64,000 bases of DNA from Epinephelus fuscoguttatus (taxonomy: Eukaryota > Chordata > Actinopteri > Perciformes > Serranidae): positions 42,707,600-42,771,599 of the forward strand of contig NC_064766.1 in the NCBI RefSeq assembly GCF_011397635.1, written 5' to 3'. The position numbers and the translations under genes are program-made. Shown one piece after another: positions 42,301 through 51,300 of the stretch; position 1 is the first letter of the stretch; every line of letters begins with the position of its first letter. The notes under the pieces were generated by a model that had not been told where the DNA came from, did not search any database, and was given only the letters and a program-made list of their open reading frames with translations.

Positions 42301-45300
42301 CTGATCACAGTTTCAGCTTCGTGCTGATTTGACACATAAAGTCCACAGGATCTGTCCCGCTGATCGACAGAACTATTGATCCTCTGATCAACGATCAGTA
42401 AGTGCTGGGGCCTGTATCATGAAGCAGGATTAATGTCTCAGCGAGGTAACTTCAGGGTTAACCCTGGGTTTTCGGTCTCACGAAGCCGGTTCAGTTCTTA
42501 TCGGGGTAGATCACCATGGTAACTTACTCTGAACGGCTATCCTGCTCCGGAGCAGGGTAAGTTCAGGGTTGAATCTGATCCTATAAAAAGCACCACCCAC
42601 TGGCCAATCAGCTGTTGATGGCTGACAGAAATGCAGCCCAGTCATGACGGGAAGTTTAATTCATTTGATTGATTTTGATTTGAAAGTTTATATTGAAGAT
42701 TAAAAAAGAAAAGAAAGCAACAACAACAGACAATGAAAAGATTGTTCAAAAAGGAGTGGAAAGAAGTGGAACTTTCATCCCAGCCCTTCATAAGAAAGAA
42801 ACTGATCATTAGCAGACACTTAATAGCACCATTAATTAGTGCCAACATTTTGTTTTGTTGGAGGAAATGATCCCTGTTAAAGATAATGGGCCTAACTGAC
42901 AGCTTTGCTGCTGGAAATGTGGAAAGTAGCCTATCATGTCTACACTTCATGGTGTTTGAGGGATTTTCCTTTTTGTTCCTTAAAGAGGGACACTAGGTAT
43001 ATTTCTGCACAGCTGTTAATTTCTAACACAGCTCAATATCAGGATGATTTTATTCAGACTATCAGTTTGGTGTTGATATGATTTAACTGTGGCGTCAGCT
43101 TTAAGCTTTATTGTAGCATATATAACGTTATGACAAAGAAGACCAGTTTATCAGACGCAATGATGTTAGACGATAATTGTAATACACGCAGTTCATCTGC
43201 GCAGCATTGATTTCATGGGATTCAAGGGTGTGATCAGTGTCAGATGTACAGGTACAGGTACTGTAGCTACTTGAACCAGTGATGAGTCATTTAACCTACA
43301 CATCATTTTATTTGCTGCCTTGTGTTGTCTTGATTTTTCCCTCTCTCCTCCTCTATTTCTTCTTTCCTCACCCGTTTCTTTTTCTTCTCTGTTATGTGAT
43401 GTCATTGATGTTTTGACAGGGGAATTTCTTTGATAAGCTTTTAGTGGCTTCTAACCTCTCCGGCACTTTTATTTTTTTAACCTTGTAAATGTTATACTGT
43501 CTGTTTTTAACATTATGTGCAAATAAACTAATCTAAACTAAAACTAAACATTATTCATCCCGTTATGCGTTGCCACGCATGTTTCCTCCTCCTGCAGCTG
43601 CCACGGTGTTGGCCTTTTCTCTAATGTTGCTTTTCTCCTCCTCATATTTTAGTAGAATTAATCTCTGATCCTCACATGAGAAATACTTTTTCCCCTCACA
43701 TACGGCGCTCTGTGAGGACGCTCAGTGAGGACGCTCAGTGACGCTCAGTGACGCTGCGCTTCTCTCATGATTGTGATTGGTCCGCTGCGTGCGCGTTCAC
43801 GGCTCTTGATAAAGCAACCCTGGGTTGAGTTACCGAGTTGATATCCAGCGTCGTGATACCGATTATCCTGATTGCCATTGTTAGGGTTAGTCAACCCAGG
43901 ATAGGTCTGGGTAACCCAGGAAAGGTTGATCTCGCTTCGTGATACAGGCCCCTGATCTTCTTCTTCTCCTCCTGCAGGTTTTAGATCCTCGAACTCGAAT
44001 GATTCTGTTCAAGATGTTGAGTCGAGGAATCATCAGTGAGATCAACGGCTGCATCAGCACCGGGAAGGAGGTCAGACATCATTGATCACTGGTCGATACA
44101 CTGATCGATACACTGATCAATACACTGGTCTATACACTGATCGATACACTGATTAATACACTGGTCGATATACTGATCAATATAGTGATCAGTGAACTGG
44201 TTGATACACTGATCAATACCGGGAGCTCAGCTCTGTGTTGGTGTTTTCAGGCTAATGTTTATCATGCCAGCACGTCAGCAGGAGAGAACCGAGCTATCAA
44301 GATCTACAAGACCTCCATCCTGCTGTTCAAGGACCGAGACAAATACGTCAGCGGAGAGTTCAGGTCAGTCACCACAGAAGAAGAAGAGTTCAGGTCAGTC
44401 ACCACAGAAGAAGAGTTCAGGTCAGTCACCACAGAAGAAGAAGAGTTCAGGTCAGTCACTACAGAAGAGGAAGAGTTCAGGTCAGTCACCACAGAAGAAG
44501 AGTTCAGGTCAGTCACTACAGAAGAGGAAGAGTTCAGGTCAGTCACTACAGAAGAAGAGTTCAGGTCAGTCACCACAGAAGAAGAAGAGTTCAGGTCAGT
44601 CACTACAGAAGAGGAAGAGTTCAGGTCAGTCACCACAGAAGAAGAAGAGTTCAGGTCAGTCACCACAGAAGAAGAAGAGTTCAGGTCAGTCACCACAGAA
44701 GAGGAAGAGTTCAGGTCAGTCACCACAGAAGAAGAGTTCAGGTCAGTCACCACAGAAGAAGAAGAGTTCAGGTCAGTCACCACAGAAGAGGAAGAGTTCA
44801 GGTCAGTCACCACAGAAGAAGAGTTCAGGTCAGTCACCACAGAAGAAGAAGAGTTCAGGTCAGTCACCACAGAAGAAGAGTTCAGGTCAGTCACCACAGA
44901 AGAGGAAGAGTTCAGGTCAGTCACCACAGAAGAAGAAGAGTTCAGGTCAGTCACCACAGAAGAAGAATTCAGGTCAGTCACCACAGAAGAAGAGTTCAGG
45001 TCAGTCACCACAGAAGAGGAAGAGTTCAGGTCAGTCACCACAGAAGAAGAGTTCAGGTCAGTCACCACAGAAGAAGAAGAAGAGTTCAGGTCAGTCACCA
45101 CAGAAGAGGAAGAGTTCAGGTCAGTCACCACAGAAGAAGAAGAGTTCAGGTCAGTCACCACAGAAGAAGAAGAGTTCAGGTCAGTCACTACAGAAGAGGA
45201 AGAGTTCAGGTCAGTCACCACAGAAGAAGAGTTCAGGTCAGTCACCACAGAAGAGGAAGAGTTCAGGTCAGTCACCACAGAAGAAGAAGAGTTCAGGTCA

Positions 45301-48300: not shown

Positions 48301-51300
48301 TCAGTCACCACAGAAGAAGAGTTCAGGTCAGTCACCACAGAAGAGGAAGAGTTCAGGTCAGTAGGAGGAGTAGGAGAACACAGGCTCCTCCCCCTCAGTA
48401 CAAGTTTTAACTTTCGGTTGTCTCCAAAACAAAACACATCAGACACAGGCCAGTCAGTTTGACTCACTTCCTGCAGATCATTATCATAATCAATAATCAT
48501 CATTAGTCACTGATTGATGTGTGTATCAGCTGTTCTCAGTCACCATGAGGCGCTAACACATTCTTCTGTTCAGGTTCCGTCACGGTTACTGTAAAGGAAA
48601 CCCCAGGAAGATGGTGAGAACCTGGGCAGAGAAGGAGATGAGGAATCTCATCAGGTCAGAACCTTTCTACTGATGCATAGAACCCAGTAGAACCTGATGT
48701 AACTGACAGATAGAACCCAGTGGAACATGGCGTGACTGAATGGTAGAACCCAGTGGGACATGGCGTTACTGACAAGTAGAACCCAGTGGAAGCTGACGTG
48801 ACTGACAGGTAGAACCCAGTGGAACCTGATGTGACTGACAGGTAGAACCCAGTAGAAGCTGACACAACTGACAGGTAGAACCCAGTGGAACCTGATGTGA
48901 CTGACAGGTAGAACCCAGTAGAAGCTGACACAACTGACAGGTAGAACCCAGTGGAACCTGACGTGACTGATAGGTAGAACCCAGTAGAACCTGACGTGAC
49001 TGACAGGTAGAACCCAGTGGAACCTGACGTGACTGACATGTAGAACCCAGTGGAACCTGACGTGACTGATAGGTAGAACCCAGTAGAAGCTGACACAACT
49101 GACAGGTAGAACCCAGTAGAAGCTGACGCGACTGACAGGTAGAACCCAGTGGAACCTGACGTGACTGACATGTAGAACCCAGTGGAACCTGACGTGACTG
49201 ACAGGTAGAACCCAGTGGAACCTGACGTGACTGACATGGAGAACCCAGTAGAAGCTGACGTGACTGACAGGTAGAACCCAGTGGAACCTGACGTGACTGA
49301 CAGGTAGAACCCAGTCGAACCTGACTGTCTTTATGTTTCAGGCTGCAGACGGCAGGAATCCCAAGTCCAGAACCTCTCCTCCTCAGAAGTCATGTTCTGC
49401 TGATGAGCTTCATCGGGAAAGACAACATGTAAGTACCAATCAGAATATTTGATCAAAACCGGTCACAGATGTTCACTGAATAATTATGATTCTCCTGCTA
49501 TGTAATGATCACTGTGTATTAATCACTGTGTATTGATCACTCTGTGTATTGATTCCTGTGCGTATTGACCACTCTGTGTATTGATCACTGTGTATTTATT
49601 CCTGTGTGTATTGATCCCTGTGTATTGATCACTGTGTATTGATTCCTGTGTGTATTGATCCCTGTGTATTGATCACCCTGTGTATTGATCACTGTGTGTA
49701 TTGATCACTCTGTGTATTGATCACTCTGTGTATTGATCCCTGTGTATTGATCACTGTGTATTGATCCCTGTGTGTGTTGATCACTCTGTGTATTGATCCC
49801 TGTGTATTGATCACTCTGTGTATTGATCCCTGTGTGCATTGATTCCTGTGTGTATTGATCACTCTGTGTATTGATCCCTGTGTGCATTGATCCCTGTGTG
49901 CATTGATCACTCTGTGTATTGATCCCTGTGTGCATTGATCCCTGTGTGCATTGATTCCTGTGTGTATTGATCACTCTGTGTATTGATCATTCTGTGTATT
50001 GATCCCTGTGTATTGATCACTCTGTGTATTGATCCCTGTGTGCATTGATTCCTGTGTGTATTGATCACTCTGTGTATTGATCCCTGTGTGCATTGATCCC
50101 TGTGTGCATTGATTCCTGTGTGTATTGATCACTCTGTGTATTGATCCCTGTGTGCATTGATCCCTGTGTGCATTGATTCCTGTGTGTATTGATCACTCTG
50201 TGTATTGATCATTCTGTGTATTGATCCCTGTGTATTGATCACTCTGTGTATTGATCCCTGTGTGCATTGATCACTGTGTGTATTGATCACTCTGTGTATT
50301 GATCCCTGTGTGCATTGATCCCTGTGTGCATTGATTCCTGTGTGTATTGATCACTCTGTGTATTGATCCCTGTGTGCATTGATCCCTGTGTGCATTGATT
50401 CCTGTGTGTATTGATCACTCTGTGTATTGATCATTCTGTGTATTGATCCCTGTGTGTATTGATCACTCTGTGTATTGATCACTCTGTGTATTGATCCCTG
50501 TGTGTATTGATCACTCTGTGTATTGATCCCTGTGTATTGATCACTCTGTGTATTGATTATTCCTCAGGCCAGCTCCTCTGTTGAAGAATGCCTCCTTGTC
50601 GGAGTCGAAGGCTCGGGAGCTCTACCTGCAGGTTCTACAGAACATGAGGAAGATGTTCCAGGAAGCTCGACTCGTCCACGCCGACCTCAGCGAGTTCAAC
50701 ATGCTGTAAGAGACCACACCCACCACACCCTCCACCCCTTCAGAATAAAAGCCCTGTGGAACTGACTAACCTGTGTGTAGGTATCACGATGGAGACGCTT
50801 ACATCATCGACGTGTCACAGTCGGTGGAACACGACCATCCACACGCTCTGGAGTTCCTCAGGAAGGACTGCAGCAACGTGAACGGTGAAACTGGTGATCC
50901 TGAGTATGGATGATTGATTATCAGGTCCGAACCTGTCAGCTGATCAGTGTGTGTGTGTTCTTTTCCCAGAGTACTTTGTGAAGCGTGGTGTGGCGGTGAT
51001 GACGGTAAGAGAGTTGTTTAACTTCATCACCGACCCATCGATCACCTGCCACAACATGGACCAGTACCTGGAGAAGGTCTGACCACTCCCACATTCAGTA
51101 AAACTTTATTTATAAAACACAAAGATACAACAATTACTAATCAGTTTGTGATTGATCGTCCAGGCCATGGTGATCGCAGCCGATCGGACGTCGGAGCAGC
51201 GATCAGATCAGGACAGAGTGGACGAGGAGGTGACAGGAAGGAAACACAAACACCATCATGTTGGCACATTTACGGTGATGCCTCACCTGTCTGACTTCTC

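Follow-up and report, generated by a model that had tools for sequence, protein, structure and literature searches.

In the window examined here, a 64,000-nucleotide stretch of the Epinephelus fuscoguttatus genome (C15:42707600-42771599), intron 7 of the RIOK1 gene is filled, except for its last 211 nt, by a minisatellite that includes the true 5′ splice site (donor) of coding exon 7 in its first unit and repeats that donor in every later one, giving 139 exact copies in the phase of the exon. This array is a donor-spanning variable number tandem repeat (VNTR) of the kind found in human ABCA7 and CBS, set apart by its 139 in-phase donors. It was quite probably born on the exon 7-intron 7 junction and grew within the intron, with the first donor serving as the main splice site and later ones remaining mostly silent. 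Donor-spanning arrays are already known from CBS and ABCA7, and the RIOK1 array shows that a frame-tolerant one exists; among the titles and abstract openings listed in literature searches, whose scope excluded most subscription papers, none dealt with RIOK1 or with donor arrays that are in phase.

A minisatellite on the exon 7 junction of RIOK1

An earlier note, made from the letters of this stretch, had named the gene RIOK1 and let the array start from the exon 7 donor, and both proposals hold. Exons 6, 7, and 8 joined encode a 96-residue peptide that aligns without gaps with residues 161-256 of human RIOK1 (E 2.4e-57, versus RIOK1 in the PDB), and tblastn placed more RIOK1 coding stretches from ∼39.3 kb to 56.2 kb of the window, using as query a human RIOK1 sequence that recovered the N-terminal exons in part. 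Exon 7 (44251-44363, plus strand), placed by tblastn, the joined peptide against PDB RIOK1, and direct reading, is 113 nt long and ends in phase 2 (...GAG TTC AG). Its true 5′ splice site, CAG/GTCAGT at 44361-44369 (plus strand; direct reading and joined peptide), is donor 1 of the array. Intron 7 occupies 44364-48573 (4210 nt, plus strand), and exon 8 (48574-48654, plus strand; direct reading, tblastn, and joined peptide) is 81 nt long, a multiple of three. Exon 7 ends in GAGTTCAG followed by GTCAGT, exon 8 starts with G followed by TTCCGTCAC, and the peptide across their junction reads ..SGEFR-FRHGY... Because this joined peptide fits human RIOK1 gap-free, the first array unit holds the true donor. 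Chance does not account for an array placed on a genuine donor.

Tandem Repeats Finder (TRF) called the array at 44355-48362, with ∼138.5 copies of a 30-bp consensus, and an exact count within the element (44356-48362, plus strand) gave 139 copies of CAGGTCAGT in units of 27, 30, or 33 bp, the first at 44361 and the last at 48354. The 138 spacings between donors are 30 bases (85 cases), 27 bases (51), or 33 bases (2), with no other value and without a gap where a donor had been lost, in agreement with the earlier estimate of about 140 in-phase donors in units of these three lengths. Each unit comprises the last eight exonic nucleotides, the intron start GTCAGT, the motif CACYACA, and a tail of GAA/GAG, and nine distinct unit sequences occur. 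A single extra copy of CAGGTCAGT lies outside the array within the window, at 35161. The 20-mer core GAGTTCAGGTCAGTCACCAC has 109 exact matches in the 1.047-Gb assembly (26 contigs), on which all genome searches were run, and 109 in the window; since the two totals are equal, no copies outside the window are reported.

The order of the units is itself repetitive. Self-alignment of the unit order scored 19.5, whereas none of 40 shuffles exceeded 9.5, which reveals repeated blocks, and one stretch of 15 units reappears unchanged 64 units further on. These internal blocks suggest past changes in the copy number of the array.

RIOK1 introns 6, 8, and 9 are also largely minisatellite, at 44087-44219 (12/36 bp), 48678-49325 (33 bp), and 49501-50557 (16 bp), respectively. 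These three arrays begin ∼16 to 70 nt past their donors and do not include them.

Donor-spanning arrays at other loci and in published systems

The genome was searched for a donor 9-mer repeated three times at intervals, and 26 regions (17 + 9) were fetched among the matches listed; one of three C8 places among the CAGGTCAGT matches listed was left unfetched, and from the GAGGTCAGT and AAGGTAAGT searches only L051, L053, and L060 were examined. In three of the 26 regions, an exon named by homology ends precisely where the array starts, and coding resumes past the array: SNAPC4, a SIAH gene, and XRCC3. The SNAPC4 array (L034, C6:46706000-46715900, minus strand) lies between an exon ending in ..NHRLQ and a next exon reading KELLSQLSG, and has 31 exact donors evenly spaced at 31 bases, each unit consisting of 25 exonic and 6 intronic nt. 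The gene name comes from the matches of a human sequence to four stretches (E 0.002 to 7e-21), and a single-exon match in the PDB was weak (E 0.46). The intron, 993 nt long, is almost entirely array, and its last exact donor would leave 63 nt, a later imperfect copy 32 nt. In the SIAH gene, the exon ending in ..HKSITTLQ (E 1.5e-31) is followed by three exact donors at 40 bases plus a fourth, imperfect one, and the next exon contains GEDIVFLATD. In XRCC3, the exon ending in ..YRGLNS matched XRCC3 chains (E 2.6e-20), with a RecA fusion chain higher in summed score via six weak stretches; three donors spaced at 32 bases follow, and the next exon contains GAVYICTED.

Exact donors that are in frame and reached without a stop number 139 of 139 in RIOK1, 1 of 31 in SNAPC4, and 1 of 3 in both SIAH and XRCC3, and in each of the latter three genes the sole usable exact donor is the first. 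Eleven of the 31 SNAPC4 donors are in frame, and only the first of them is stop-free. Donor-spanning arrays thus recur in this genome, and since the sister periods of 31, 32, and 40 bp break the frame, RIOK1 alone of the four has its donors spaced in phase, and such spacing is not a rule. The earlier note proposed to check in relatives whether unit lengths stay multiples of three; applied across these loci of the same genome, that check weighs against a general restriction, on a sample of three loci.

Matches to three spaced donors, counted on both strands, were compared with those to a backward-motif control for CAGGTCAGT (261 versus 42), CAGGTAAGT (142 versus 0), CAGGTGAGT (470 versus 43), GAGGTCAGT (123 versus 16), AAGGTCAGT (86 versus 0), and AAGGTAAGT (2 versus 0); the matches overlap and come mostly from a few long arrays, the gap ranges vary slightly between searches, and a single backward motif makes a weak control. 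Because of the overlap and the weak control, no rate of motif-specific excess was drawn from them.

Other fetched regions gave more ambiguous array edges. In L046 (C4:45136200-45137050), a first-exon-like frame that starts with MSEQREDNV enters a 21-bp donor-like array of CTCAG/GTGAG units, and the frame ends at the array. Open frames at the array edge in L035, L036, and L041 had no significant protein match (best values 0.13 and 0.11), L037 is a near-copy of L036, and L049 stops short of the edge of its array. L026, L028, L029, L030, and perhaps L027 were set aside, as a long open frame on the opposite strand indicates that their donor-like motifs are probably not donors. L031 (∼C20:39292977-39296324) is a 21-bp array with 131 exact CAGGTAAGT donors, one frame of which is open in stretches of 160, 538, and 443 codons, and no exon was identified at its edge. 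In the remaining fetched regions, nothing at the array edge was recognised by translation, no protein search having been made.

Published systems include close counterparts. The human ABCA7 intron-18 VNTR is built of ∼12 to 427 units of 25 bp, and its first GT serves as the donor of exon 18 (PMC5954066). Transcripts retaining exactly one unit amount to 2 ± 1%, are out of frame, and are subject to nonsense-mediated decay (NMD), and skipping of exon 19, which has 44 codons and can be skipped in frame, climbs with array length (PMC5954066). RIOK1 resembles ABCA7 in having a minisatellite that starts from a canonical donor, in units that may each offer a donor, and in a next exon, exon 8, that is skippable in frame. 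It differs in its in-phase units of 27/30/33 bp, whereas retention of one 25-bp ABCA7 unit breaks the frame; ABCA7 is also known with RNA and disease data, whereas the RIOK1 array is described here from DNA sequence. The human CBS 31-bp VNTR, c.1444_1467+7(16_21), spans an exon-donor junction (PMC2630376, PMC1395315), and its unit, as read from the variant name, has 24 exonic and 7 intronic nt, a plan much like that of SNAPC4 (25 + 6). The RIOK1 unit likewise spans the exon-donor junction, with 8 exonic nt and the rest intronic, while CBS differs in having 16-21 copies of 31 bp that are out of phase.

Two further systems are more distant. Intron gain via tandem AGGT duplication (PMC3443670) also yields extra splice sites from a duplication around AGGT, but in RIOK1 an existing donor was multiplied and no new intron arose: the array stops at 48362, short of the acceptor that precedes 48574, so that only the donor comes from the repeat. 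The prawn Rlec lectins (PMC7536079) share tandem units of 30 or 33 bp, but theirs are coding, whereas those of RIOK1 belong to the intron except where splicing would take a later donor.

Reading frame, donor choice, and competing explanations

All 139 RIOK1 donors are in frame with exon 7, with no stop before any of them, so the EFRSVTTEE(E)-like peptide read by the earlier note does run through the array in the exon frame, which stays open up to a first stop at 48460-48462 (plus strand) upon intron 7 retention, where that note had placed it. The last donor copy (48354-48362, plus strand), if used, would leave a 217-nt intron (48357-48573) and lengthen exon 7 by 3993 nt (1331 codons). An array open in the gene frame is what a coding minisatellite would show, but it discriminates little here. 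Three of three forward frames and one of three reverse frames are stop-free across the array, and when a 27- or 30-base unit is shuffled, a given frame is open in 57-60% of cases and all three in 10-14%. The open frame is thus a property of the unit; on both counts it is weak evidence of coding and was rejected as proof of it. The earlier reading of a latent coding minisatellite is only partly supported, for the open, in-phase array but not for coding.

An array that is open as well as in phase departs only mildly from chance expectation. Among 23 arrays of period 10 or more in the window, a list drawn by hand from TRF, 6 or 7 have a best period divisible by three, RIOK1 counted, the choice between 6 and 7 hinging on the row chosen for one array. 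All 138 RIOK1 spacings are divisible by three, compared with sister junction arrays of 31, 32, and 40 bp, and the RIOK1 tail is itself a run of GAA triplets. Slippage preserves multiples of three because the variable part of the unit is this triplet run, and the spacing most likely arose from chance (∼1 in 3 for a base period of 27/30) together with slippage in the GAA tail rather than from selection. Selection for such spacing was rejected as the leading idea because of the sister periods, although three loci are few.

Under the favoured explanation, tandem duplication over the exon 7-intron 7 junction would have given each unit its own copy of the 5′ splice site, and growth inside intron 7 would have proceeded partly by block duplication via unequal exchange or slippage. 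Donor 1 would carry most transcripts, since in each of the three sister arrays no exact donor but the first is usable and since one-unit retention is rare in ABCA7. By analogy with ABCA7, the later copies may be mostly silent, with a few per cent of leakage to donor 2 and its neighbours. A leaked RIOK1 transcript would remain in frame and should escape NMD, which would not be so in ABCA7, SNAPC4, SIAH, or XRCC3, and each retained unit would add 9-11 residues, EFRSVTTEE(E)-like but permuted, after residue 229 of human RIOK1, in the flexible loop between beta3 and alphaC. This is the insertion point of any later-donor peptide, which the earlier note had put after residue 220. The long array may also reduce inclusion of exon 8, as that of ABCA7 does for exon 19, and skipping of this 81-nt exon would be in frame.

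Pairing with the 5′ end of U1 is predicted at -8.0 kcal/mol for the exon-7/array donor, -5.5, -6.9, -6.9, and -4.3 kcal/mol for the presumed donors of exons 6, 8, 9, and 10, respectively, and -14.0 kcal/mol for the consensus. The 139 donors are equal in their 9-mer, and therefore position and enhancers must decide the choice among them.

Several points weigh against the predominance of donor 1 and the proposed mode of growth. Some systems favour the intron-proximal donor, and GAAGAA tails are classical exonic enhancers, the main argument for use of later donors. The last array donor pairs with U1 at -9.6 kcal/mol, through its following bases, versus -8.0 for the others, and would give a 217-nt intron. 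First-donor use in the sister arrays is no proof for RIOK1, because those arrays break the frame; selection against later donors is relaxed in RIOK1, where the choice of donor is argued by analogy. The 2% retention in ABCA7 is an imperfect guide, as it belongs to another unit in human tissue, and alternative ABCA7 transcripts summed exceed the canonical form in 90% of BA10 cases, mainly through exon-19 skipping (PMC5954066). With respect to block duplication, a plain shift-by-k comparison of unit order gives 0.365 at shift 64, within the maximum of 0.40 reached in 500 shuffles.

The alternative that survives best, though unlikely, is a coding minisatellite, latent or real, in which several donors are used and the resulting RIOK1 proteins form a ladder, each with its own number n of EFRSVTTEE(E)-like units inserted in the flexible loop of the kinase domain, variable between individuals. 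It draws on the 139 of 139 donors that are in frame and stop-free and on the GAA-rich tails, which could serve as exonic enhancers. It also draws on the insertion site, as the exon 7-8 junction would fall at about residues 98-99 of PDB 1zp9_A, which we take to be A. fulgidus Rio1 (AfRio1), within the flexible loop, a placement made from matched alignment ends with chain positions taken as residue numbers. This loop, R83-E111 in AfRio1, moves upon ATP binding (PMC3358306) and is positioned between beta3 and alphaC (PMC4125297). The loop is, however, counted among the conserved regions (PMC4125297), and the residues invisible in AfRio1 crystals are 85-93, which excludes 98-99 (PMC3358306); on these two grounds, easy tolerance of an insertion is disfavoured, which tells against harmless leakage as well. 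The openness of all three forward frames, the sister arrays being out of phase, and a reported ABCA7 retention of one unit only, at ∼2% (PMC5954066), further reduce the case for coding. Another doubtful proposal likens the array to a "slot machine," in which a fraction of transcripts picks the nth of 139 donors, yielding an in-frame RIOK1 ladder of allele-dependent length in a minisatellite-rich genome that repeatedly multiplies exon donors. If it were true, in-phase arrays would be a source of new, length-variable protein segments that arise with no broken-gene stage.

Considerably less probable is a functional splicing or transcription element maintained for its role, such as a platform of 139 U1 sites suppressing premature polyadenylation or tuning exon 8 inclusion. 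Every one of the 139 RIOK1 copies keeps the donor 9-mer intact, with no change in the 138 units compared, and so do all 31 SNAPC4 units, while in an array on C20, for which no exon is shown, 25-26 of 160 units are altered at two donor bases. Variable positions are few, however, and would miss the donor by chance with a probability of 0.22 in RIOK1 and 0.04 in SNAPC4, and the sister loci were found via intact donors, which biases the comparison by ascertainment; for these reasons donor conservation was left as a lead only and not taken as proof of function. The minisatellites in introns 6, 8, and 9, which start after their donors, also speak against a dedicated role. An assembly artefact, by which the copy number and order of the array would not be real, is very improbable: long tandem arrays are hard to assemble and a single assembly was used, but the nine discrete unit types with repeated blocks and the similar arrays at other loci argue otherwise, and the existence of the array is independent of its exact count. 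Least credible of all is a wholly exonic array, spliced from its last, intron-proximal donor to give RIOK1 with ∼1331 extra residues, for although the frame is open up to that donor, the leftover intron would be 217 nt, and its U1 pairing is the best of the 139, it would require a 4-kb exon and 1331 residues within a conserved kinase domain, a case not found in the literature examined.

The RIOK1 array offers a natural experiment on how the spliceosome picks among many identical 5′ splice sites, 139 of them in one transcript. Donor choices should be readable from cDNA without NMD bias, because none is destroyed by a frameshift, and the SNAPC4, SIAH, and XRCC3 arrays provide out-of-phase controls in the same genome. 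Beyond human, donor-spanning arrays now extend to at least four genes of one genome, one of them frame-tolerant.

Surroundings of RIOK1 in the window

Upstream of RIOK1, TRF detected a 16.7-kb array of ∼560 copies of a 30-bp unit (12486-29226), which takes up a quarter of the window. Retroelement remnants lie inside the 3′ portion of RIOK1 and past it, in the form of endonuclease-reverse transcriptase and reverse transcriptase pieces (Pfam PF14529, PF00078) at 53237-53863 and 58505-59320 on the minus strand. Two open frames carry other domains, one at 9822-10676 (plus strand) with a chromodomain (PF00385, E 1.4e-16) and one at 60622-61263 (minus strand) with a GDSL-like lipase domain (PF13472, E 4.3e-8).

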